This document shows positions 2,474 to 64,000 of a DNA stretch of 64,000 nt, piece by piece. Source of the DNA: Marivirga arenosa. GTDB lineage: Bacteria > Bacteroidota > Bacteroidia > Cytophagales > Cyclobacteriaceae. Under the pieces are notes generated by a model, which searched no databases, was not told the origin of the DNA, and saw only the letters and a list, made by a program, of their open reading frames with translations. Position numbers and translations under genes: made by a program. The DNA lies in contig NZ_CP129968.2 of assembly GCF_030503875.2 (NCBI RefSeq), positions 1,824,001 through 1,888,000 on the forward strand, written 5' to 3'. Position 1 is the stretch's first letter, and each line of letters begins with the position of its first letter.

Positions 2474-5400
2474 ATGAAAAACTCCATTTTTGTAATTCTA
2501 TTAATCTTTGGCTTTTCTGCTATTATCTCAACGCAAAGCTATGCCCAAAGCTCATGGGAAGATTCATTTTCTGCACTACAGCAAGCTCAAAATGAGAATA
2601 AGCTTGAATTGGCTAATTCTTTATTAGAAAAGGCACTCCAACAAGCTAAAAAAACCTATGGTGAGGTACACCAAGCCTATGTGCTCACATTACACTTAGG
2701 GGTGAAATTGTCTTTTCAAACTCAGGATTATGAATATGGATTAGAGTTGGCTAGAAGAGAATTAGAGTTGATGAATGAAGTTACCTTTGATCAACAAACA
2801 CAATTTTATATTCAGCTTCTTAATTTTTTAGCTCAACTTAATATTCAACTCGGAAATACTGACGAAGCAATTCAATTCTCAAAGGATTATATGGAATTGC
2901 TAAATAAGGAAGATCCGAGTTCTCTTAATCAAGCTTTAGCAACTTATGATTATGCTTCACTACTATATCAAAATCAAGATGATAAAGCATTAGAGTATTT
3001 TCAAAAAGCCTTACCTGAACTTGTTCAATTTACAGCTCAAGCCGGAACGCAATATTTGAATGCCCTTTATTATGTTGCTTCATTATTACAAGAAAAGGGT
3101 CAGTTAGATCAAGCCGCTAATTACTATGATAAGGTAATCGGGATCACTCAGGATAATAACTTGCAAAACTCTGATCTCTGGAAAATCTCAGCCTACCAAA
3201 GAGCTTTAATTTATCAAGAAAGTAGTCAGAATGATAGAGCAATATCATTTTATGATATATTGATTACCCAATTAGAAAAGGATGGAGAAACTGAAAAAGA
3301 TTTATATGTCAGTGCAAAGAATAATCTAGGAGTTTTATATCAAAAAACTGGACAAACTAAAAAAGGAGAATCCTTACTGGCTTTAAGTGGTGATGATTTA
3401 CAGAGTCAATTAAATAGTGCCGCTATTGCTTATAATAATGGTGATTATGAAACTGCATTAAACCTTTATACCATTGCTAATGACTCACTGGAGATACAGA
3501 CAATAGAGGACAGTCTTCAATCCGTAAAAATATTAGCTCAAAAAGCCTTGGTATTTAAATCTATGGGTCAATTAGATTCTGCTTTAAATTTACTGCTAGC
3601 TTTAGAGGCTGACATACTTAAAAATATAGCTGGAAGGCAGGAGGAGAAAGCGCTAGCTTATAAAAATACTGGAGATCTTTATCTTGAATTAGCTGATTTT
3701 GATTCAGCTGAATTATATCTGAATAAGGCTCTTGCTCAATTTGAAGGCAATGATAAATTCAAAACAGAAATCCAGATACAAACTAGAAATAGCTTAGGGG
3801 TTTTAGAGCAGAATAGAACCAATATTGAAAAAGCTGCTTCGTACTTTACTCAAAATTTGAAGCAAATTGAAGAAACCCTGGGTAAGCAAACGGTAGAATA
3901 TGCCAATACCTTAAATAACTTAGGTTCTTTAAGATTGGAAGATAGTGAATACGATTTAGCAGCTTCATATTTTGAAGATGCTGGAAAGATCTTCAGGTCT
4001 ATTTTTGAGGAGGAACATGAAAACATAGCGAGAACCTACGAAAATTTAGGAGCTGTTGCTCAAAGTAGATCTCTATACAGAGTAGCAGATTCTTTATATC
4101 AATTAGCTGAAAAAACTTATACAGCAAGTTTGGGAAGTGAGCATCCCGCATTATTGAATGTGAATTCAAAATTAGCTTTAGTGAAATTGGCTGAAGCTGA
4201 TTATCCAAAAGCAGAGCGCTACTTTAGGCAGTCCTTAGATTTATCAAAGCTAATTTTTGGAGAGCAAAGTGCTGCTTATGCTGATGCCTTATCGGGTATG
4301 GGTTTATATTATCAAAGCACAGGGAATTTAAGGGAGGCAAAAAATAATCTTCAAAAGGCCATCGAAATTTATATCAAAAAACTTGGTAAGCTTCATCCAT
4401 CTTATGTTACCTCTATAGAAAATCTATCTTCTATTTATCAAAGTGAGGGTAATGTTAAAGAAGCCCTTCCCTTGCTGAATGAGGCTCTAGAGATGGATTC
4501 GATAATCTACGGAGTCAACCATCCTAAATATGCTACTACCTTACACAATTTAGCCTCCTTATATTTGAGCAATGAAGATTTTAATAAGGCAGAAGACTTC
4601 TATGAAAAATCATTAGTAATTGATGAAAAAGTATATGGTAAAGAAAATCCTGTTTATGCTAGTACTCAATATAATCTTGCTGTTTTATACCAAAAGCAGG
4701 ATCAATTTGATAAAGCAGATTCTTTATTTGCTAGAGTTACAGATTTAAGAAAAGAAGTATTAGGAGATAATCATCCAGACTATATCTTTACCCTATATGG
4801 TTGGGGTATTTTAAAGCAAGTAGAAAATGATATAGACTCAGCCTATAATTTATTTTCAACTGCTGTTGATAGCTACTTATTTCTTTTCAAAGAATATTTT
4901 CCTTCCATGAGTGAAAGTGAAAAATCTGCCTTTTACCATAAGGTAAATCCAGTTTTTGAAGCATATAAAGATTTTGCACTTGAAAACTACACTAAAATCC
5001 CTAAGCTGAAAGAAGATTTATTTGACCTGCAATTGTCTACCAAAGCAATGTTATTGAATGCTTCGGCTAAGATGAGAAATAAGATCTTAAATAGTGGAGA
5101 TGAGGAGCTGATTTCATTATTCAAACAATGGCAATCTAAGAAAGAAAAAGCAATCCAATATTACTCTTACACAAAAGATGAATTAGATGAACAAAATATT
5201 GATTTAGATGAATTGGAGGTTTCCATTAATAATATGGAAAAAGAATTGAGTTTGAAGTCTAATTTATTCAATGCAGGTTTTGGATCGGATAGTATAAACT
5301 GGCAAAAATTGAAAGCGAGCTTAGCACCAAATACTGGTGTGGTCGAGCTCGTAAGAGTTAAGAAGAGTTTAAGAAATGATTCCATTATATATGCAGGTTT

Positions 5401-6562
5401 GATTTTGACTTCCGATATGACGGAACCTGAAATTGCAATTCTACAGGAGGGCAGAAGAATTGAACAAAAATATTTTAATGCCTATCAGAATTTGATCAAG
5501 TTTAAATTGATGGATAAAATATCCTATGAAAATCTTTGGGAATGGGTAGACGAAAAAATTCCTGAGAATTTAGATAAGTTATTTATCAGTCCTGATGGAA
5601 TTTATAATAAGATTAATATCAATACACTTTACAGCGAGAACTTAGATCAATATCTTCTTGAAAAAGAGAATATCAGAATTATTACAAGTTCTCGAGATTT
5701 GATAAAGCAAAATGAAATCCCAATACCTAAAACTGATCTAGCAATTGATTCTGCTGGTGTAAATTCAGATTCAGTGATGATTGCTGATGATTTAGATTTA
5801 AGAAGTAATAGACCAAGTTTAGTGCTAATTGGATCACCTGATTTTTCTTTGGGAAGATCAGAAGACGAGATGAATTTAACAGCCGAAAGGGTAGGTTTAA
5901 TGAGAAATTTCAGTGGTGGTATTCCAAGACTCCCAGGTACCAAAAAAGAAATTAATGCCATTGATTCTATGACAAGGTCAAGCAATTGGCAAGTGAGGAA
6001 ATATTTAGAAAAAGATGCAAATGAAATTTTGATAGATAGCATCTCAGCTCCTAATATATTGCATATTGCTACCCATGGCTTCTTCAAGACTTATGATGCT
6101 GATAAAAAGATATCAGGAGTAGAAAATCAAGGCAAAGAAGAAAATCCATTATTAAGATCTGGTATATTGCTTTCAGGTGCTTCAATCGGTCTTGCTGGGG
6201 GCTTACCTTATGAAAATAGTTTTGAAGACGGACTTCTTACCGCTTATGAAACTATGAATCTTAACCTTGATGATACCGAATTAGTAGTGTTATCTGCTTG
6301 TGAAACAGGTTTAGGAGATGTAAAAAATGGAGAAGGAGTTTATGGACTTCAACGTGCATTTTTGGTAGCAGGAGCAGACAATCTAATCATGAGTTTATGG
6401 ACTGTCAATGATTATACCACTCAACTTTTAATGACTGAATTTTACAAACATTGGACAGAAGGGGATGATAAATTTTCAGCCTTCAGGAAAGCACAAATGA
6501 AAATTAAGGAACAATTTCCACAACCCTATTATTGGGCAGCATTTACTATAATTGGAGAATAA
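2474..6562 (+). CDS. Exported TPR-repeat protein with C-terminal CHAT (caspase-like) domain
   Basis: A 1362-residue protein with a signal peptide (residues 1-25, ending SYAQ). A long tetratricopeptide array spans about residues 30-810, with several kinesin-light-chain-like units such as YATTLHNLASLYLSNEDFNKAEDFYEKSL. A helical linker follows, then a CHAT domain from about residue 1035 to the end. The clan CD dyad is visible: His1201 in LHIATHGFF and Cys1276 in LSACETGLGD. CHAT proteins are related to caspases and separases, so a protease regulated by its TPR scaffold is likely; the target is unknown. I chose the ATG at 2474 over a GTG at 2450 because it starts the signal peptide cleanly. First gene of a three-gene operon. 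Confidence 0.9.
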   Translation: MKNSIFVILLIFGFSAIISTQSYAQSSWEDSFSALQQAQNENKLELANSLLEKALQQAKKTYGEVHQAYVLTLHLGVKLSFQTQDYEYGLELARRELELMNEVTFDQQTQFYIQLLNFLAQLNIQLGNTDEAIQFSKDYMELLNKEDPSSLNQALATYDYASLLYQNQDDKALEYFQKALPELVQFTAQAGTQYLNALYYVASLLQEKGQLDQAANYYDKVIGITQDNNLQNSDLWKISAYQRALIYQESSQNDRAISFYDILITQLEKDGETEKDLYVSAKNNLGVLYQKTGQTKKGESLLALSGDDLQSQLNSAAIAYNNGDYETALNLYTIANDSLEIQTIEDSLQSVKILAQKALVFKSMGQLDSALNLLLALEADILKNIAGRQEEKALAYKNTGDLYLELADFDSAELYLNKALAQFEGNDKFKTEIQIQTRNSLGVLEQNRTNIEKAASYFTQNLKQIEETLGKQTVEYANTLNNLGSLRLEDSEYDLAASYFEDAGKIFRSIFEEEHENIARTYENLGAVAQSRSLYRVADSLYQLAEKTYTASLGSEHPALLNVNSKLALVKLAEADYPKAERYFRQSLDLSKLIFGEQSAAYADALSGMGLYYQSTGNLREAKNNLQKAIEIYIKKLGKLHPSYVTSIENLSSIYQSEGNVKEALPLLNEALEMDSIIYGVNHPKYATTLHNLASLYLSNEDFNKAEDFYEKSLVIDEKVYGKENPVYASTQYNLAVLYQKQDQFDKADSLFARVTDLRKEVLGDNHPDYIFTLYGWGILKQVENDIDSAYNLFSTAVDSYLFLFKEYFPSMSESEKSAFYHKVNPVFEAYKDFALENYTKIPKLKEDLFDLQLSTKAMLLNASAKMRNKILNSGDEELISLFKQWQSKKEKAIQYYSYTKDELDEQNIDLDELEVSINNMEKELSLKSNLFNAGFGSDSINWQKLKASLAPNTGVVELVRVKKSLRNDSIIYAGLILTSDMTEPEIAILQEGRRIEQKYFNAYQNLIKFKLMDKISYENLWEWVDEKIPENLDKLFISPDGIYNKININTLYSENLDQYLLEKENIRIITSSRDLIKQNEIPIPKTDLAIDSAGVNSDSVMIADDLDLRSNRPSLVLIGSPDFSLGRSEDEMNLTAERVGLMRNFSGGIPRLPGTKKEINAIDSMTRSSNWQVRKYLEKDANEILIDSISAPNILHIATHGFFKTYDADKKISGVENQGKEENPLLRSGILLSGASIGLAGGLPYENSFEDGLLTAYETMNLNLDDTELVVLSACETGLGDVKNGEGVYGLQRAFLVAGADNLIMSLWTVNDYTTQLLMTEFYKHWTEGDDKFSAFRKAQMKIKEQFPQPYYWAAFTIIGE

Positions 6563-6570
6563 GTATTTCT

Positions 6571-8670
6571 ATGAACTATTATAATAAAATTTTTTTAATA
6601 ATCGCATTGGTGTTTAGCGCATCTATTGCTTATTCACAATCCAAAAAGGATTCGATAGAACAAGTATTAGATTCAATATATCCTAAGACTATTGTAGCTG
6701 AAATCAGCTCCGATGAGTTTACAGAATATGCACCTAGTATTAGTGCGAACGGTCGGATTATGATATTCGAGTCTAATCAAAACGGACTCTGGAATCTTTA
6801 TTTAACCAGATTTGAAGAGGGTAAATGGATTGATGAAGTTCCCATTGATAGTGTTAATATGGCTGCGGACTCAAATGATGTAATTAGTGGTCCTAACTTT
6901 AGCTACGATGGAAATAGAATATATTTTCATGCTTCATTTGATGGAGGTTTTGGAGCGGAAGATATTTATTTTTCTGAAAGGGTAGGTGACAATTGGACTG
7001 AGCCAGAAAATATGGGGCCTGAAATAAATTCTTCAAGCTTTGATGGTTTTCCAACTATTTCAACAGATGGAAAAACACTTTATTTCACTCGAAATAGTAA
7101 AAACATCCCAGAAGGCATAAATGAATTTTGCTATGAGATTTATGCTTCTCAAAAAACTGATTCTGGTTGGTCTGAACCAGAAGTTTTACCGTATCCTGTC
7201 AATTTAGGATGCGAAAAAGCTCCTAAAATCATGGCAGATAACAGAACTTTAATATTTGCTTCATTAAGGGAAGGTGGTATTGGAGGCTTTGATTTGTATC
7301 AGACCAGACTCAATGAAGATGGGGATTGGATTAAGCCAGTACCTCTGGAATATGTAAATACCACGGATGATGATTTATTTTCTTCCATCTCTGCTTCTGG
7401 AGATTTAATGTACTTCTCAAAGCGTAATGATATATATAGTGTTGAAATTCCTCAGGAATTTAGACAGTTTCAAAATGTCACCCTTCAAGGTGTTATTCGA
7501 GATGCTGACAGTAAAGAGGGTTTATCAGCATCAATCAGGATTACAGATGCCAATACATCTGAAATCATTACCAGTTTTGATAATAACCCATCAGATGGTT
7601 TTTATTCTATTGTATTATCTGCTGGAAGAGCCTATAATTTAGAAGTAAGGAAAGAGGACTACAGCAGCGCTCTTTATTATTATGATTTGAGAGATATAGA
7701 GAGTTATCAGGAATATGAGCAGAATATTGATTTATTCACTACTGCCCACCTTAATGTGAATATTTATGATATTGAGTTGTATGATCCCTTAAAGTCTACT
7801 ATCACAGTTAAAAATACATCCGGTCGAACGGTAGATATTGTAGAATCAGATGGTCAAAACTGGAAAACTAGAGTAGACCTACCTATTGGTAATGCCTATA
7901 CTGTGGAAGTAGAAAGTGAAAATTTTAAATCTAAAAGTTTTTCAATTGACTTGACGGGTTTGATTTTATACCGTGTTTATGAAGAGGATATTGAGTTAAT
8001 CCCTGAGAAAATTGGAGTTCCTATTAATGTAAATGATTTATTGAGTGGAGGGTCTGTTTCATCTTCTACCTTGATAATTCGCAATAAGACAAGAAATGAA
8101 GAGATTGTGATTTCTGGAAATCAAACCATTAATTTGAGGGTGGGAGACCGTTATATGGTGGAGGCTTCAAGTGATAGAGGTTATGCCTTTAACTCTACTG
8201 AAATTGAGATTTCGAATCAAGGTAAATTGCAAACCATTGATGAAAGCACTGGTGAGATTAAAGAAGATAGTAAAGGAGTTGAATTAAAACTGCAACCTTT
8301 AGCTAAGGATGCTAACCTGACCTTAAAGGATATCTATTTTGAATCAAATTCATCAGATTTATTTGAAAGTAGTTTTGAAGAGCTAGATAGGGTTATAAAA
8401 CTGATGAAATCTTATCCCACAATGAAAATTGAGATTGCTGCACACACCGATGATATTGGGGCGGCTGCTTATAATGTACGACTATCTAAACAACGGGCCA
8501 ATAGTGTAATCAGTTATATCACGAGTAATGGCATTGAGGAAGATAGATTAATTTCACAGGGTTACGGAGAATCCAAGCCTGTGGTGCCTAACGATTCTGA
8601 GGAAAATAGAGCCAAGAATCGAAGAGTAGAATTAAAAATATTAGACATTCAATTGGCGCAAAATGATTAA
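6571..8670 (+). CDS. Exported PD40 beta-propeller / OmpA C-terminal domain protein
   Basis: A 699-residue exported protein (signal peptide to about residue 22, ending AYSQ; no lipobox). Residues 35-300 hold PD40 (WD40-like) propeller repeats such as DGFPTISTDGKTLYFTRN. Residues 305-375 look like a carboxypeptidase-regulatory/CnaB-type beta domain, followed by further beta-rich segments. Residues 583-695 are an OmpA peptidoglycan-binding domain with AHTDDIGAAAYNVRLSKQRA. The architecture resembles that of PorE-type proteins of the type IX secretion field, though without their TPR part and lipid anchor. Start at the ATG at 6571, eight bases after the TPR-CHAT stop, so translation is probably coupled. 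It likely anchors a complex to the cell wall. Confidence 0.85.
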   Translation: MNYYNKIFLIIALVFSASIAYSQSKKDSIEQVLDSIYPKTIVAEISSDEFTEYAPSISANGRIMIFESNQNGLWNLYLTRFEEGKWIDEVPIDSVNMAADSNDVISGPNFSYDGNRIYFHASFDGGFGAEDIYFSERVGDNWTEPENMGPEINSSSFDGFPTISTDGKTLYFTRNSKNIPEGINEFCYEIYASQKTDSGWSEPEVLPYPVNLGCEKAPKIMADNRTLIFASLREGGIGGFDLYQTRLNEDGDWIKPVPLEYVNTTDDDLFSSISASGDLMYFSKRNDIYSVEIPQEFRQFQNVTLQGVIRDADSKEGLSASIRITDANTSEIITSFDNNPSDGFYSIVLSAGRAYNLEVRKEDYSSALYYYDLRDIESYQEYEQNIDLFTTAHLNVNIYDIELYDPLKSTITVKNTSGRTVDIVESDGQNWKTRVDLPIGNAYTVEVESENFKSKSFSIDLTGLILYRVYEEDIELIPEKIGVPINVNDLLSGGSVSSSTLIIRNKTRNEEIVISGNQTINLRVGDRYMVEASSDRGYAFNSTEIEISNQGKLQTIDESTGEIKEDSKGVELKLQPLAKDANLTLKDIYFESNSSDLFESSFEELDRVIKLMKSYPTMKIEIAAHTDDIGAAAYNVRLSKQRANSVISYITSNGIEEDRLISQGYGESKPVVPNDSEENRAKNRRVELKILDIQLAQND

Positions 8671-10840
8671 GAACATGAAGAAGTTACTATTTATCATATC
8701 GTTATTCATCTTACTGCCTAAAATAAATTATGCTCAATTAGAGCTTGATTATGATGATGATATCAATCCTTATTTCTTAGGAGATAGCATAGATTTGGTA
8801 TTTCCACTTTTATATGATTTTTTCAAAACTAATAATGAACATCCTGCAACTAATATTCAGTTAGCTTTAATATTTCAAGAACGCTACAAAAATGCTCATC
8901 CTATTTCGGATTATGAATCAGCTATTGCTAATGCAGAAAGAGCCAAACTATTATTTGGTCGATCTAGAGATTTGATTGATGATAGAGAAGTGAGAAGAAA
9001 TGAATGGTATTATCCAAACTTTACTAATGAATTCAAAAGAAATGGGAAACCAGTGTTAGAATTTGAGGCGGTTCAATCTGTTTTTGAGCAAGGCTATAAA
9101 GAAGCTGATTCATTCTTAGTGCATATGCCACCTATTTATGATAATTTCATGAAGATGGTAGAGCAATATGATTTGGCAGCGAAAAACTTTGTCCGAATAA
9201 ACGGGGACTACAATTCACTCAAGGATATTTATCTCCTTTTTGATGAAGATCTAAAAGCTCGATTTGATTTGGTGAAAAACAGTTATGATTCAACGCTGTA
9301 CTATTTCAAAGCCTATAAAGATGCAGCTAGCAAATATCCTCCCTTTGAACTCGATCAGCAGTTGTCATTTAATCAAATTAAAACATACCGTTTAGACGGA
9401 TTGGTGATCCAAACAGACTTTTTGGTGAACAATATTAAATTGTGGGATTATACTTCTTGGGTGAATGAGGTAAAAAATGTAATTGATACTGAGATTGATC
9501 AATTGAGAAAAGATATTACTCAAATTGAAGATAAGCTTGATGATAGTTTTGATCAGATGGAAAATTGGCAGCCAAATGATTCAATTGATATCGATCCTAT
9601 AGAAAGGAAATCAATTTACAGGATTAGAAAGTATGATTTGAATTCACCAGTGGCTAATCTTTTCCAATATAAAGATGATAAGCTGGATTTGATTAATGAA
9701 CAAAAGAGTTTAGCAGTCTACGATACTGCTGAAGAGATATCTTTGCAAGTTAAATTATACACCATAAATCGAGTTTTTCAGCAGACTATCCAATTGGAAA
9801 ATGCTTTAGAAAGTTACAATGAGCAAATTGCCTTGAGTGATCTTAATAAAAACAAAGACTTCTACCAACAATATTATGGAGGAGTTGAGGGGTTTAAAGA
9901 ATATTTTAAATCTGAATCTGGTGAATTATTAAAGATAAGGGGAGAAACTGCTAATAGATTGAAAACTCAAATTGTGGAGCAGTTTGAAAAACCCTTTGCT
10001 CAGGAAATCCCAACCTTTAGAAGGCTGAAATTTGAATGGCAAAATCCAGAAAATGAATATGATTCACTTCCTAAAAATATAGCGTATATCAATCACTCAG
10101 TTACTAATGTAAACGAGCTGGAATATTTTGGAGGATATTATTTTAATCAGGATAGTGTTCCTCAAGCATTTTATGCTGCTAAAAATGATACAAAAGTTAG
10201 ATGGTATAATGCTGTTCCTTCATTATATCAATCCAATAAAGCCTGGCAGCAAATTAATGATATTTCAGTTGCAGGTGGAGGTGATTTAAATTTCTTATTG
10301 TATGAAAGTCATGTTGATTCATTAGATTTCATTAACCACATAGTGGTGGCAGATGAAAACGGAAAAATAAAAAATGACATAGAAATTGATACTCAAGAAA
10401 AGCCTCTTGAATTAACTGCTTTAAGAAATAGTAATCTTCAGTTAGCCTTATATCAAGGAGATGGGTTAGGAGATGCTATATGGCCGAATTTCCTAACTGT
10501 GGTGAAATTTAATCCTGATAGTACAGATTATGTTATAAAAGAAATTGACATCAATGGAAAATATGAAGGGATATTTCAAACGGAGGAAGGAATTATATTG
10601 GTATCCTCATCAGAGGATAAAATGAATATTCATGCTACACTTTTTGATGTGGATTTTAATTCGCTAAAGAAGCAATCCTATTCTTTCAAAGAGGACTTTG
10701 AAATCCATTATCATTACCAATTGAGTGATGAAAGTTTACATTTAATGAGTAGGCAAGGAGAGAAGGGGCACTTCGTTTTGAATGATATTTTAGAGTTACG
10801 ATATTCTGATGTTGAATTAGAATCTACAGATGGTATATAA
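8663..10840 (+). CDS. Large exported protein of unknown function, third gene of the CHAT operon
   Basis: I do not recognise this 725-residue protein. It has a signal peptide (to about residue 25, ending NYAQ). Residues 30-480 are predicted mostly helical and charged, with coiled-coil-like stretches such as VIDTEIDQLRKDITQIEDK. Residues 490-715 look beta-rich, with repeated short strands of the type found in propellers. The start overlaps the preceding stop by eight bases; a second ATG at 8675 would lie four bases after the stop and gives an equally good signal peptide. A strong terminator follows at once. The tight linkage suggests it works with the CHAT and OmpA-type proteins in the periplasm. 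Confidence 0.8.
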   Translation: MIKNMKKLLFIISLFILLPKINYAQLELDYDDDINPYFLGDSIDLVFPLLYDFFKTNNEHPATNIQLALIFQERYKNAHPISDYESAIANAERAKLLFGRSRDLIDDREVRRNEWYYPNFTNEFKRNGKPVLEFEAVQSVFEQGYKEADSFLVHMPPIYDNFMKMVEQYDLAAKNFVRINGDYNSLKDIYLLFDEDLKARFDLVKNSYDSTLYYFKAYKDAASKYPPFELDQQLSFNQIKTYRLDGLVIQTDFLVNNIKLWDYTSWVNEVKNVIDTEIDQLRKDITQIEDKLDDSFDQMENWQPNDSIDIDPIERKSIYRIRKYDLNSPVANLFQYKDDKLDLINEQKSLAVYDTAEEISLQVKLYTINRVFQQTIQLENALESYNEQIALSDLNKNKDFYQQYYGGVEGFKEYFKSESGELLKIRGETANRLKTQIVEQFEKPFAQEIPTFRRLKFEWQNPENEYDSLPKNIAYINHSVTNVNELEYFGGYYFNQDSVPQAFYAAKNDTKVRWYNAVPSLYQSNKAWQQINDISVAGGGDLNFLLYESHVDSLDFINHIVVADENGKIKNDIEIDTQEKPLELTALRNSNLQLALYQGDGLGDAIWPNFLTVVKFNPDSTDYVIKEIDINGKYEGIFQTEEGIILVSSSEDKMNIHATLFDVDFNSLKKQSYSFKEDFEIHYHYQLSDESLHLMSRQGEKGHFVLNDILELRYSDVELESTDGI

Positions 10841-10846
10841 AATAGA

Positions 10847-10871
10847 AAAGGCTGGATTTCCAGCCTTTTTT
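10847..10871. terminator. Bidirectional intrinsic terminator
   Basis: AAAGGCTGG (10847-10855) pairs perfectly with CCAGCCTTT (10860-10868) across a four-base loop, and T residues follow. It begins seven bases after the stop of the CHAT operon and has an A-rich side facing the opposite gene, so it probably also ends transcription of the convergent beta-barrel gene. Confidence 0.9.
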
Positions 10872-13278: not shown

Positions 13279-14549
13279 ATTGGTTAGAGAGAGATCAAAA
13301 TAGTATCTGGCATCCATTTACACAGCTTTTAAATGGCTTTGAACATATAATGGTAGAGAAGGCAGAGGGAATGTATTTGCATACTCCAGACGGCCGGAAA
13401 ATAATGGATGCTATTTCTAGTTGGTGGGTTAATTTGCATGGACATAGCCATCCTAAAATAGCCGAAGCAGTGGCTAAACAGGCTAGTAACTTAGAGCATG
13501 TTATTTTCGCGGGTTTCACGCATAGCCCGGCCATAGAACTGGCTGAAAAATTATTATCTATTTTACCCAAAAACCAATCTAAGATATTCTATTCTGATAA
13601 CGGAAGTACTGCCAATGAGGTAGCCTTGAAAATGGCTTTTCAATATTGGTATAATAAAGGTGAAAAGAAACGTAAAAAAGTAATTGCATTTGAGGGTGCT
13701 TATCATGGTGATACATTTGGCGCCATGTCAGTAGGAGATAGAGGGCCTTTTTCAGCTCCTTTTTCACCTTATTTATTTGAAGTGGAGTTCTTACCTATGC
13801 CTACTGAAGAAAATCATACAGAGCTGCTTAATAAGTTTGAAAAAATATTGCATTTAGGAGAAGTAGCAGCATTCATTTTTGAGCCATTGGTTTTGGGATC
13901 AGCAGGAATGAAAATGTATGATGCTTCATTTTTAGATCAACTGATAGAAATGGCACAAAAAGTAGATGTCATTTGTATTGCAGATGAGGTTTTTACTGGT
14001 TTTGGTAGAACAGGTAAAAACTTCGCATCTGATTACTTAAATCATAAACCTGATATTCTTTGCTTGTCAAAAGGTTTAACAGGTGGCACCATGGCATTAG
14101 GGGTAACTTCATGTACTGAAGCAATAATGGAAGCTTATAAGAGCACAGATATCATGAAAACATTTTTTCATGGACACAGCTTTACTGCAAATCCTATTGC
14201 ATGTGCTGCTTCTATTGCGAGTTTTGATTTGTTAGTGAATGAAGATACTCAAAGCAAAATTCAAGAAATAGGGGAGTGGCAGACTGAATTTTACCATAAG
14301 ATTTCTCAGCATCCTAAAGTTCAGAATGCGCGAGTATTGGGGACGATCTTTGCAATGGAGTTAAAGACAGAGTCAGATACATCCTATGTGAATGAGGTGC
14401 GTCATAAGCTTTATCCATTTTTTTTAGAAAGAGATATATTATTGAGACCCCTAGGGAATGTATTATACATTTTACCACCTTACATAATCAAAAAAGAAGA
14501 AATTGAAAAGGTTTATAATGCTGTAGAGGAAATGTTAGAAACCTTATAA
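13275..14549 (+). CDS. bioA: Adenosylmethionine-8-amino-7-oxononanoate aminotransferase
   Basis: A 424-residue class III aminotransferase that converts KAPA to 7,8-diaminononanoate, normally with S-adenosylmethionine as amino donor. Seen in the sequence: SSWWVNLHGHSHP at about residue 48 (the BioA substrate-site signature), YHGDTFGAMSVGDRG, IADEVFTGFGRTG and the PLP lysine in CLSKGLTGG. Last gene of bioF-bioD-bioA. bioB and a pimeloyl-forming pair such as bioC/bioH are not in the window, so they must be elsewhere if the pathway is complete. A strong terminator follows about 50 bases downstream. Confidence 0.95.
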   Translation: MNWLERDQNSIWHPFTQLLNGFEHIMVEKAEGMYLHTPDGRKIMDAISSWWVNLHGHSHPKIAEAVAKQASNLEHVIFAGFTHSPAIELAEKLLSILPKNQSKIFYSDNGSTANEVALKMAFQYWYNKGEKKRKKVIAFEGAYHGDTFGAMSVGDRGPFSAPFSPYLFEVEFLPMPTEENHTELLNKFEKILHLGEVAAFIFEPLVLGSAGMKMYDASFLDQLIEMAQKVDVICIADEVFTGFGRTGKNFASDYLNHKPDILCLSKGLTGGTMALGVTSCTEAIMEAYKSTDIMKTFFHGHSFTANPIACAASIASFDLLVNEDTQSKIQEIGEWQTEFYHKISQHPKVQNARVLGTIFAMELKTESDTSYVNEVRHKLYPFFLERDILLRPLGNVLYILPPYIIKKEEIEKVYNAVEEMLETL

Positions 14550-14599
14550 TTAGGTTTTATATAATTTGACTTGATAAAATTAAGAATTGGCACAAACAA

Positions 14600-14627
14600 A
14601 AAAAGCTACCAAAAAGGTAGCTTTTTT
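14600..14627. terminator. Bidirectional intrinsic terminator between bioA and the tRNA genes
   Basis: AAAAGCTACC (14601-14610) pairs perfectly with GGTAGCTTTT (14616-14625) over an AAAAA loop, followed by T residues on the plus strand and by T residues on the minus strand. It closes the bio operon and, on the other strand, the tRNA-Glu transcript, whose last mature base is at 14632. Confidence 0.9.
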
Positions 14628-14631
14628 ATTG

Positions 14632-14703
14632 TAGCCCGTAGGGGAATCGAACCCCTGTTTCCAGGATGAAAACCTGACGTCCTAACCCCTAGACGAACGG
14701 GCC
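14632..14703 (-). tRNA. tRNA-Glu (anticodon TTC), second copy in the transcript
   Basis: On the minus strand the 72-base sequence begins GGCCCGTTCGTCTAGGGG and ends GGTTCGATTCCCCTACGGGCTA. The anticodon stem TCAGG/CCTGG encloses the loop TTTTCAT, giving anticodon TTC (Glu). The T arm GGTTCGATTCC is standard. The first acceptor pair is G-T, as in other Bacteroidota tRNA-Glu. CCA is not encoded (C only). The gene is identical to the copy at 14788-14859. Confidence 0.95.
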
Positions 14704-14787
14704 ATAGTTATTTGATTCTACTATGAAAAGAATTAAATTTTTTCTGAAATTTTGCTAAATGTTTTACTTTTTAAAACATTATAAATG

Positions 14788-14859
14788 TAGCCCGTAGGGG
14801 AATCGAACCCCTGTTTCCAGGATGAAAACCTGACGTCCTAACCCCTAGACGAACGGGCC
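14788..14859 (-). tRNA. tRNA-Glu (anticodon TTC), first copy in the transcript
   Basis: The 72 bases are identical to the tRNA-Glu gene at 14632-14703, separated from it by 84 bases. It lies just downstream of a canonical minus-strand promoter at 14877-14907, so both tRNAs probably come from one precursor. The spacer holds an AT-only hairpin (AATGTTTT / AAAACATT at about 14759-14781) that might matter in processing. Confidence 0.95.
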
Positions 14860-14876
14860 ATTTGTAAATGGAGATG

Positions 14877-14907
14877 CAAATATAGAAGCTGCATTTTTAA
14901 TTACAAA
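14877..14907 (-). promoter_or_regulatory. Promoter of the tRNA-Glu pair
   Basis: Read on the minus strand, TTTG (14907-14904), a 19-base spacer, then TATATTTG (14884-14877) match the Bacteroidota -33/-7 promoter consensus exactly. The tRNA 5' end lies 18 bases beyond the -7 box. The promoter is back to back with that of gap. Confidence 0.85.
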
Positions 14908-14963
14908 CCATAGCTCAAAAAAAATATAAAAATATTTTCTGAGCTAAACCTTTGAGCTTCTAA

Positions 14964-60782: not shown

Positions 60783-61880
60783 TTATTCCGTGCTTAAATA
60801 GTAAGCTCCTTCAATTACGTAATTTTTATTTGCATTTAAGCTGTTAGGATCTATTCCAATATACTCTTCATTTTCCGCCACCATTTGAATTTCAACTTTA
60901 TTAAATTGATTATCAGCTAATGCTTCAAAAATATAGATATGGTTTCCTTGTCTTAAAATTCCTTTTTTAGGCATTAGTAGTAAACTATCAGTTTGAGAAT
61001 GTACAGTCACTTCTAGCTGAGCGCCTAATGGGATATTTACTTGTTCTGGAATGTCAGCATGTGCTAAGACGGCATTACCTGTTAACTTTTTATTGATTAA
61101 ATGTAATTTGCTTTCGTAAGACTTATGGCTTTCTGGTAATTTAAAACTGACTCTTTGCTCTTCTTTTAAGAGATGTATGTCTTTCGGGTAAACCAAAAAT
61201 TCAAGATGCATTTCATCAAGATTAACGATCTCAAATAAGTCCATATTAGGTTCAGCAAGCATTCCTCTTTTAACATAAACCGCTGTTACGAAACCGCTAA
61301 AAGGAGCTCTTATGTGCAAGTTTTCCTGAAGGTTTCCTTTTACTAATGAGCTAATATTAACTCCTAGTTTTTGCAACATACTTTTCTTAGCATCAGTATT
61401 CACCTTCATCTCATAATATTTTGCTTCAGTTTGCTGATAGCTTTTTAATGAGATCGCTTTATTTTCTACCAAGCTTTTCTTTCTTTCAAAATCAGCCTGC
61501 AACTGTTTTAAAGTATTTATGGAAGCTAGATATTCACTTTGAAGTGTCAATATATCTGGATGAGAGATAGTGGCTAAAGATTGCCCTTTTTTCACTTTAT
61601 CACCTGGTAAAATACTAGTACCGTTAATAAATGCACGCTGCACAATATGTACGTTAGCAATATCCTCTGGTGCTACAGCAAGCTCACCAAAGACAGTGAG
61701 TTTTTTATCCAATGGAGCTTTTTTCAACTGTGCAATTTTCAATGAGCTATTGGCTAACTGTTCATTGCTTAAACTGATAGCAACTTCTTCTTGAGCGGCT
61801 TCTTCTGAATTAAGCTGTGTTTCTTCGCTACAAGCCGACATGACTAACAGCATCGATAATATTATATAATTGATTTTCAT
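60783..61880 (-). CDS. RND efflux periplasmic adaptor lipoprotein (CusB-like)
   Basis: A 365-residue membrane-fusion protein. The N-terminal lipobox VMSAC places the lipidated cysteine at residue 17. A barrel-sandwich (HlyD-like) pair of half-motifs is seen at PGDKVKKGQSLATI and IRAPFSGFVTAVYVKRGML, with a helical hairpin between them, and a beta-barrel follows. It links an inner-membrane RND pump to an outer-membrane channel. Its start overlaps the stop of the pump gene by four bases, so it belongs to the same operon. The metal or other substrate is inferred from the CusA-type partner. Confidence 0.9.
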   Translation of the reverse strand: MKINYIILSMLLVMSACSEETQLNSEEAAQEEVAISLSNEQLANSSLKIAQLKKAPLDKKLTVFGELAVAPEDIANVHIVQRAFINGTSILPGDKVKKGQSLATISHPDILTLQSEYLASINTLKQLQADFERKKSLVENKAISLKSYQQTEAKYYEMKVNTDAKKSMLQKLGVNISSLVKGNLQENLHIRAPFSGFVTAVYVKRGMLAEPNMDLFEIVNLDEMHLEFLVYPKDIHLLKEEQRVSFKLPESHKSYESKLHLINKKLTGNAVLAHADIPEQVNIPLGAQLEVTVHSQTDSLLLMPKKGILRQGNHIYIFEALADNQFNKVEIQMVAENEEYIGIDPNSLNANKNYVIEGAYYLSTE

Positions 61881-64000
61881 TTTGTTTCTGTTAAATATTG
61901 TAATTCAATTGAAATGTTGGCGATCTCTTTTTTGAGTTCTAAATTGGTTTTTTGAATGTTGTAAAGAGCATTTAAATTTTGTACGAATTCGTAAAAGTTT
62001 AACTCTCCAATTCTTAAAGCCTCAGATGAGGATGATTCAAGATTTTCTAATTGATCAATCATAGCAGAACTTTTAGACAAGAGTCGTTCATAATTCTGAT
62101 AATCTTTTTTTGCAATAATCAATCGTTGACTTCTCTCATAATTCTGCCAATCGATTGTCGATTTTTGTATTTCTTTTTCAATTTTTAATTCTTGAATGTT
62201 TCCTTTCACATTATTGTAGAAGATTGGTATACTTAATCCAATCTGGAAGCTTTGAAATCCAGTTATATTATTCAAACTTTGATTCACGTATCCTACATAG
62301 GCTTCAGGAAAATACTGTGCTTTACTTACTTTGATTGAACTACTAATCGTTTTCATCTGCTGTTTATTTCTGAGAGTAAAGGCAGGATCAAGAGTCAATG
62401 AATCAAGAGAATTACTCCATTCATATCTGCTATATTGACTGATGGAATCAGGTAGCTCATTACAAAAACAAAGCTGTTTCAAATTTTTAGTATTTTCGTT
62501 TAAAAGCTTTTTTCCTTTTATTAATTCATTTTCAATACTCATTAATTGACCCGATATACTGAGGATTTCCAGCTTTCCACTCTCACCTTCTTCAATCATT
62601 TCTTTAGCTTGTTTCATGCTTTTCTGTAAAAGATCCGATTGATCCTCTAAAAACCGTACTTGTCTTTTACTATATGTCCAGTTATTCCAAGCTTTTCTGA
62701 TATCAGCAGCTACTTGTTTTTTAGCTAGATGATATTCTTTGTTTGCTAGTTCGATTTGATGATCCGCCATTTCGGATCTTCTAAAATTAGCAGGTACATT
62801 TCCAATAGATTGTTGAATCGTCCAACTATTATCAATTAAAGGACCGTCTAACTGACCTCTTTGATAATTTATATTGGTGGAAGGAATTTGAAAAGCTTGG
62901 GTTTTAAAACTTTTAGCCTGTTCTATTTTTAGTTGTGCATTGATCACATGAGGATTTTTTTCCATAGCATTAGTGATCATACTTTCTAAAACTTGAGGAT
63001 CATTTTTATCCTGTGCTTGTAACTCATGATTCAGTCCTGAAATACTCAGCAAGCATAGGATTATGATAGGTATAATCTTACCACTCATTTTTACTTTATT
63101 GATTAAATAATATAAAGCAGGCAGCACGACTAGCGTTAAAAAAGTAGCTGTAATTAATCCTCCAATTACTACTGTAGCCAATGGTTTTTGAACCTCTGCT
63201 CCGCTTGAAGTTGAAACAGCCATAGGTAAGAAACCTAAAGAAGCTACTAGTGCAGTCATGACAACAGGTCTTAAACGATCAGCACTTCCTTTTTTAATGA
63301 GTTTGATCAAGTCCATTTCTTTTTCTTCTGCTTTTAAGTCATTCAAATGACTGATTAATACAATTCCGTTTAATACGGCTACACCGAAAAGAGCGATGAA
63401 ACCTACTCCGGCAGAAATACTAAATGGCATGTCGCGTAACCATAAAGCTAAGACTCCGCCAATGGCTGATAGGGGTACGGCAACATAGATTAAAAGCGCA
63501 TATTTAATTTTACCAAAAGCAAAGTATAAGAGTATGAAAATCAGAGCTAAAGCTACCGGAACGGCTATAGATAAACGTTTACTTGCCTTTTCTAGAGTTT
63601 CAAACTGACCTCCATACTTAATAGAATAGCCCGGATCCATTTTGAGATTTTCATCTAATTTACTCTCAATATCTGCTACAAGTCCCGCAATATCACGGTC
63701 TCTAACATTCACACCTACTACTACTCTTCTGCGAGTATCATCTCTGGAGATCTGTAGTGGACCTTCTTGATATTCCCATGAAGCCACCTCTGATAAAGGA
63801 ATAATTGTGCCATCTTTGCTTTTAATAGTAAGCTGATCTAGGTTTATGGAATTTCTGAAAGATTCACTCAATCTCACTACTAATTCAAACTTTCTTTCTC
63901 CTTCAAAAACAAATCCTGCATTTTCACCAGCATATGAGGCTCTTACAATACTGTTTAATTCTTCAATAGAAACGCCATATTGAGCGGCTTTCCTTCTATT
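61877..64000 (-). CDS. CusA/CzcA-type RND pump fused to a TolC-like channel, N-terminus beyond window
   Basis: The visible 707 residues are the C-terminal part of a larger gene; the frame is open to base 64000 (GENAGFVFEGERKFELVVRL precedes the GTG at 63877), so no start is claimed. About the first 305 are the end of a heavy-metal RND pump (DTRRRVVVGVNVRDRDIAG, GVAVLNGIVLISHLNDLK, ADRLRPVVMTALVASLGFLPMA, VVIGGLITATFLTLVVLPALYYL). A further hydrophobic segment then leads into a TolC-family outer-membrane factor with long helices to the end (from about QDKNDPQVLESMITNAMEKNPHV). So one polypeptide joins the inner-membrane pump to its channel. I infer export of copper, silver, zinc or cobalt. Confidence 0.9.
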   Translation of the reverse strand, partial: NRRKAAQYGVSIEELNSIVRASYAGENAGFVFEGERKFELVVRLSESFRNSINLDQLTIKSKDGTIIPLSEVASWEYQEGPLQISRDDTRRRVVVGVNVRDRDIAGLVADIESKLDENLKMDPGYSIKYGGQFETLEKASKRLSIAVPVALALIFILLYFAFGKIKYALLIYVAVPLSAIGGVLALWLRDMPFSISAGVGFIALFGVAVLNGIVLISHLNDLKAEEKEMDLIKLIKKGSADRLRPVVMTALVASLGFLPMAVSTSSGAEVQKPLATVVIGGLITATFLTLVVLPALYYLINKVKMSGKIIPIIILCLLSISGLNHELQAQDKNDPQVLESMITNAMEKNPHVINAQLKIEQAKSFKTQAFQIPSTNINYQRGQLDGPLIDNSWTIQQSIGNVPANFRRSEMADHQIELANKEYHLAKKQVAADIRKAWNNWTYSKRQVRFLEDQSDLLQKSMKQAKEMIEEGESGKLEILSISGQLMSIENELIKGKKLLNENTKNLKQLCFCNELPDSISQYSRYEWSNSLDSLTLDPAFTLRNKQQMKTISSSIKVSKAQYFPEAYVGYVNQSLNNITGFQSFQIGLSIPIFYNNVKGNIQELKIEKEIQKSTIDWQNYERSQRLIIAKKDYQNYERLLSKSSAMIDQLENLESSSSEALRIGELNFYEFVQNLNALYNIQKTNLELKKEIANISIELQYLTETK

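Follow-up and report, generated by a model that had tools for sequence, protein, structure and literature searches.

A conserved gene set for an apparently exported caspase-fold protein, a propeller-OmpA protein and a third partner in Marivirga arenosa

Three consecutive genes with exported-type products

We analyzed three adjoining genes, here called gA, gB and gC, in a 64,000-nucleotide stretch of the Marivirga arenosa genome (contig NZ_CP129968.2, positions 1,824,001 to 1,888,000; this whole stretch is the window, and positions in it are counted from its first letter). An earlier reading of the same DNA, made without database searches (the sequence-only reading), had described a TPR-CHAT protein, a PD40-OmpA protein and an unknown exported protein encoded side by side. 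Three consecutive open reading frames on the + strand, together with Pfam matches, confirmed this set. The first gene, gA (2474..6562, +), codes for an exported-type TPR-CHAT protein of 1362 amino acids (aa) with a putative signal peptide, a long TPR array, a helical linker and a CHAT fold. The second, gB (6571..8670, +; 699 aa), codes for an exported-type protein that combines a PD40 propeller, a regulatory domain and an OmpA domain, without a lipobox. The third, gC (8675..10840, +), codes for an exported-type protein that matched no family. Eight bases separate the gA stop (6562) from the gB start (6571), as described earlier. The eight-base overlap formerly assigned to gB and gC probably stems from a misplaced start codon. 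The gC frame opens at 8663, but its start is probably the ATG at 8675, giving 721 aa: the identical database protein has this length, and the starts of the orthologues correspond to this codon. Consequently, the two genes probably do not overlap and are separated by a gap of about 4 bases.

The set ends at a strong hairpin with a T-run (10846..10869, no strand assigned), the terminator that the sequence-only reading had noticed. Because the hairpin sits between convergent genes, it probably serves both; the output of the hairpin scan for 10846-10869 is the minus-strand reading only. The neighbors of the set in the window look metabolic (bioF by profile scan, the remaining genes by eye). Type IX secretion or gliding genes, for which the sequence-only reading had proposed a search, were not seen beside the set (neighbors judged by eye, four of them scanned); SprA is encoded elsewhere in the genome.

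In the window, the N-termini of all three proteins resemble Sec signal peptides and have no lipobox, in agreement with the earlier assignment. Among the distinct orthologues beside close gB relatives, a hydrophobic N-terminal stretch is present in 34 of 35 gA, 38 of 39 gB and 36 of 36 gC proteins, and our crude script found a lipobox-like pattern in none of these gA proteins and in one each of gB and gC. A C-terminal type IX sorting domain was not found among the NCBIfam matches listed (for gB, 25 of 40). This genome encodes five CHAT proteins, and each of them begins with a signal-peptide-like stretch (by eye). An exported CHAT protein is therefore not unusual in this group, and the contrast that the sequence-only reading drew with cytoplasmic CHAT systems was too strong. 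A separate exported-type TPR-CHAT protein of 1409 aa is encoded in the same genome (L052, 4159-8388), and CHAT frames of about 1390-1430 aa were found in many of the 15 relatives searched.

The CHAT domain of gA

By its Pfam matches, gA is a TPR array that ends in a CHAT domain (PF12770), which scored 203.5 bits with the cut-off at 24. The CHAT (caspase-fold) region covers residues 1020-1362 (5531..6559, +). The dyad named by the sequence-only reading, His1201 and Cys1276, is numbered correctly when counted from the ATG at 2474, and it is indeed intact, since both residues are kept in all 45 distinct gA proteins. The codon of the putative catalytic histidine lies at 6074..6076 (+), directly after a strand in the gA model. 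The codon of the putative nucleophile, within the motif SACET, lies at 6299..6301 (+), and this cysteine aligned with the GACET cysteine of Csx29 at a borderline E value of 0.014. In a fold search with the model, the predicted C-terminus resembled Csx29 and separase, which places it in the caspase/separase fold. The dyad is predicted at strand ends in a caspase-like arrangement. The search also matched the solved structure of DdvA, by its title a transmembrane anti-sigma factor, and the CHAT-like fold of this protein likewise speaks against regarding an exported CHAT as odd. Judged by its sequence, gA is an apparently exported, dyad-intact caspase-fold protein with putative protease activity.

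Domain content of gB and gC

In gB, the PD40 and OmpA domains matched Pfam above the cut-offs, with a sub-threshold carboxypeptidase-regulatory match between them and no TPR match. The OmpA-type domain, which is predicted to bind peptidoglycan (residues 589-684; 8335..8622, +), scored 77.8 bits against a cut-off of 27.2. Residues D627, N635, L638, S639 and R642 (D627 and the NxxLSxxRAxSV motif) are invariant in 15 alignment rows. OmpA_C-like domains bind peptidoglycan (PMC5053529, available excerpts), and by its domain and wall-binding motif gB is a predicted binder of this type. Scores against the NCBIfam families PorE (NF052230; 170.6 bits) and CHU_0125 (NF053607; 225 bits) were below the respective cut-offs of 600 and 620.

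At E 0.01, gC matched neither a Pfam nor an NCBIfam family. Its profile matched PDB entries only weakly (TPR, CylK and apolipoprotein-helix matches), and the viral fold library returned generic propellers only. The gC model consists of an N-terminal helical part (8750..9988, +), with a TPR-like start, long helices and a conserved YRLDGL...FL...WxYxxW region, and a predicted C-terminal beta-propeller (10025..10810, +). The same genome also encodes a stand-alone gC relative of 579 aa without Pfam or NCBIfam matches (L036, 8551-10290; about 2421292-2423031 of C1). It adjoins an apparent threonyl-tRNA synthetase gene (by eye), and its relatives are widespread in the window's family. Elsewhere (L165, L167, L169, L172 and L173), a lone gC adjoins a small SixA-like histidine phosphatase gene (by eye).

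Conservation of the gene set

The search of named genomes used gB alone, which is the anchor of the main count; the counts anchored on gC come from separate genome sets. A gB relative is encoded at 134 places, and the best 80 were taken as loci. Among these, 36 reached 800 bits or more with the gB profile, and in 30 of the 36 both gA and gC lie directly beside gB. Since 11 of the 36 contigs are identical or nearly identical to ones that entered the profile, we also counted the other 25, of which 19 have all three genes. Four loci (L102, L103, L106 and L108) have gA, but their contigs break off within gB or no more than 169 bases past it; at L096, the contig begins within gB, and gC follows.

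Some gC match occurs in 62 of the 148 genomes of the window's family. These proteins are of two kinds, a long one (about 700-750 aa) and a shorter relative (about 580-650 aa). A gB-linked gC was found in at least 23 of the 148 genomes, the weaker matches having been fetched in part. At the 20 loci of the strongest gC matches, gB adjoins gC in all 20 and a CHAT gene adjoins in 15, with contig ends cutting four. The 16 loci of shorter or weaker matches (L036-L051) include two cassettes in the order gB-gC-gA (L041 and L042). Searches for gC across the phylum and class gave mostly weak matches, which we did not count as gC and which often cover the propeller half (about positions 460-740) or the first 100 positions of the model. 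The phylum, order and class runs scored 2 or 3 first-look candidates per genome, so absences mean little.

The three genes thus form a real conserved unit, beyond chance. A conserved fourth gene beside the CHAT cassette was ruled out: the commonest flank family, among families identified in part, occurs in only 6 of 31 loci. Downstream genes are common to four loci, apparently the Marivirga ones.

Exchange of CHAT for Peptidase_C14

Outside the window's family, gC matches led to 26 loci. Two of them (L157 and L158) carry gA-gB-gC with CHAT. In ten others (L156, L160-L164, L168, L174, L177 and L178), the gene after gB and gC codes for a TPR protein, about 720-820 aa long, with a match to the C14 profile at its C-terminus. 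All three of these proteins that were scanned (L156, L160 and L164) matched Peptidase_C14 (PF00656) at 59.7-63.9 bits against a cut-off of 21.4. The catalytic motifs GHG and DAC(F/Y)SG are intact in all ten, and the starts are signal-peptide-like. At L175, the gC frame was not found by our script. The C14 cassettes belong to Flammeovirga and one other lineage; a search with one C14 protein returned eight close relatives among 10 matches, six being Flammeovirga. Genomes with a C14 cassette have CHAT matches elsewhere (3 to 10 each in nine f71 genomes), and a profile search found no C14 match in the window's genome. The linkage of an exported-type caspase-fold protein to a propeller-OmpA protein, as first described, was therefore stable but too narrowly drawn, because C14 replaces CHAT elsewhere.

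Quick trees, which contain some long branches, bear on the history of this exchange. L156, a C14 locus, falls with the CHAT loci L157 and L158 in the larger gB tree (support 97), apart from the Flammeovirga group. A single C14 clade is rejected by both a smaller gB tree (43 rows; p value of the approximately unbiased test, p-AU, 0.0034) and the gC tree (40 rows, p-AU 0.0076), and the protease type has therefore changed at least twice, in one direction or the other, on the gB-gC scaffold. One side of the exchange is represented by the single locus L156, whose gB frame start is incomplete. The larger gB tree omits L090, L093, L096, L102, L103, L104, L106, L108, L109, L111 and L113, 11 loci where the contig ends or a frame is broken, as well as L115, L149 and four loci below 300 bits (L152-L155); L128, whose contig ends in gB, was kept as a CHAT locus. 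Near-duplicates and incomplete genes are absent from the smaller trees, and the 43-row gB tree also lacks the long branches L041, L042 and L176. Seven of the 10 known C14 rows are in both gB trees and 6 of the 10 in the gC tree.

A proposed envelope protease complex

With moderate confidence, we propose that the set codes for an exported, peptidoglycan-tethered scaffold with an exchangeable caspase-fold protease for regulated envelope proteolysis. Computation shows that the unit is conserved and the dyad invariant, predicts the fold, and indicates that the protease type changed two or more times on one scaffold; we infer that the proteins are exported, anchored to the wall, assembled into a complex, proteolytically active on exported proteins and under allosteric control. 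In the proposed mechanism, gB would tether the set to peptidoglycan through its OmpA domain, and gC, with its helical arm and propeller, would act as a bridge, so that gB and gC would together form the scaffold. gA would dock via its TPR array, and the TPRs would keep the caspase-fold cysteine protease off. An envelope signal relayed through them would switch it on, and active gA would then cut one or a few exported proteins, in regulated limited proteolysis and not bulk degradation. The protease part would be exchangeable, being CHAT in most loci seen and Peptidase_C14 in Flammeovirga and one other lineage. Because the scaffold genes were kept while the caspase type was swapped, caspase-type proteolysis is suggested as the conserved output, and the swap between two caspase-fold families points to this most strongly.

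Several observations weigh against this proposal. The signal peptides were called by eye and with a crude hydrophobicity script, and the gA model is weak directly after Cys1276 (pLDDT below 50). At L104, gC is present but no CHAT end occurs in any of the three forward frames of the 507 bases upstream of gB. Among the 44 less similar gB loci, all three genes are found only in L109 (gB in two frames, 746 bits, outside the 36). At six loci gA occurs without gC, although two of the six leave too little space for it. Both genes are missing at 37, five of these being too near a contig start to judge gA. The 37 include all 27 loci at 400-600 bits and all 6 below 400. The linkage thus belongs to one branch of the gB family. 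Likewise, 14 of the 16 loci of shorter or weaker gC matches have neither gB nor an adjoining CHAT gene, and 12 of the 26 loci outside the family have a full or partial gC match with no gB among the neighbors listed. The co-occurrence of the three families, which the sequence-only reading had proposed as a check, therefore holds for close gB homologues and for long gC and fails for their distant relatives, which occur without CHAT. A gB-gC pair without CHAT occurs at L075 despite 7.6 kb upstream, and another pair has no protease among its neighbors (L176, one of the 26). A second cassette type consists of gA and gB without gC (L110, L114, L116 and L117). Together with L104, these loci suggest that no part is strictly indispensable. 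Finally, the divergence of the three genes is correlated across 34 loci (r 0.868 for A-B, 0.944 for A-C and 0.905 for B-C, with gA represented by its last 400 residues; largest r in 2000 permutations 0.326), but this is equally expected from plain vertical descent.

Alternative explanations

The set could instead be a secretion-accessory module, with gB as a PorE-like wall anchor and with gA and gC processing or quality-controlling type IX or outer-membrane-assembly proteins. The propeller, carboxypeptidase-regulatory and OmpA order of gB is that of PG1058/PorE (PMC5053529, available excerpts). Its PD40 and OmpA domains are shared with CHU_0125, which matters for outer-membrane integrity (PMC5891637, available excerpts). 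The genome encodes SprA; a distant gB relative (L140) lies beside a DUF5723 protein, another (L123) has a DUF5723-OmpA protein at a distance of one gene, and a PorP/SprF-OmpA fusion (4186-5799) is encoded near the gB-gC pair of L075. However, gB scores far below the cut-offs of both families and lacks their N-terminal TPR as well as a lipobox, and the available excerpts of the two papers name no caspase partner for either protein (PMC5053529, PMC5891637). No secretion gene recurs in the flanks, as far as their families were identified, and the cassette is patchy within the family. We therefore regard this explanation as unlikely. At L138, a gB relative without a protease has a neighbor that matched only thrombospondin repeats.

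It is quite unlikely that the set is an envelope death or defense switch, in which damage or an invader would free the protease and the cell would be killed or lysed. Effector exchange on one scaffold and patchy presence are typical of conflict systems. Against this, PADLOC gave no match for gA or gC and matched gB only to ZorB via the shared OmpA domain; the neighbors in the window look metabolic, downstream genes are common to four loci and no lethal partner was seen. CHAT proteins in conflict systems are on record (PMC10907252), as are metacaspases with possible signal peptides (PMC3501461), and the available excerpts of both papers propose CHAT and caspase-type peptidases as conflict-system effectors.

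A sensor without proteolysis, in which the CHAT fold would be a binding or inhibitory module, as may hold for DdvA, is very unlikely. The dyad is kept in every distinct gA and the motifs are intact in every C14 replacement, and exchange between two caspase-fold families points to shared chemistry. It is hardly credible that the gene order is due to chance or to history alone, with no joint function, since the linkage survives reordered genes, differing flanks and protease exchange, even though sub-sets and lone relatives exist.

Comparison with known systems

The best-studied bacterial CHAT systems are cytoplasmic and work with nucleic-acid or nucleotide sensors. In Craspase, Csx29 is paired with the RNA-guided Cas7-11 and cuts Csx30, whereas gA is accompanied by gB and gC, and all three proteins look exported. 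A CRISPR or gasdermin partner is not among the neighbors of the set. Cas7-11/gRAMP is not beside gA, where the neighbors are gB and gC, and gA has no PADLOC match; neither gB nor gC matched gasdermin, and the gC model is helical with a propeller. In Csx29, the TPR part turns the CHAT site on and the substrate is cut at one site (PMC10028731, available excerpts). DdvA differs from gA in being a transmembrane anti-sigma factor. Metacaspases (Peptidase_C14) stand in for CHAT beside gB-gC in some lineages, whereas gA itself is a CHAT protein. Gingipains belong to family C25 and are type IX cargo. In contrast, gA is a TPR-fused CHAT protein, and a type IX signal is not among its NCBIfam matches.

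In the open-access literature, which leaves out most subscription papers and all preprints, we found neither a title nor an abstract in which CHAT is linked to OmpA partners or the cassette is described. The parts are of known kinds; a wall-anchored module with an exchangeable protease was not found described there. We tentatively suggest that the set may represent a new class of envelope machine, a wall-mounted bacterial caspase complex in which a peptidoglycan-tethered scaffold of two proteins (PD40-OmpA and helical-propeller) takes up either CHAT or a metacaspase and works outside the cytoplasm as an allosteric sensor-protease of the envelope. An apparently exported module that keeps its scaffold while swapping CHAT for a metacaspase would make caspase-type proteolysis its conserved output. 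The marine, non-pathogenic bacteria Marivirga and Flammeovirga could serve as test systems for roles of the caspase fold in the envelope, and the set gives a first context to the gC family, which neither Pfam nor NCBIfam has named.

Additional observations

Chryseotalea sanaruensis holds both cassette types (L101 and L114). Two C14 cassettes have beside them a gene for another exported-type caspase, in which a WD40 propeller is joined to Peptidase_C14 (L163, 13343-16204; L168, 3855-6722), assigned by Pfam for the L163 protein and by the C14 profile for L168. Upstream of the C14 cassette of L160, an exported-type gene of about 515 aa (13366-14910) has a weak DUF4384 match, and such a gene recurs at the same place in L161-L163, L168, L174, L177 and L178. 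Elsewhere in the window, a single frame (61877-63877, -) seems, by eye, to fuse the last part of an RND pump to a TolC-like outer-membrane factor.

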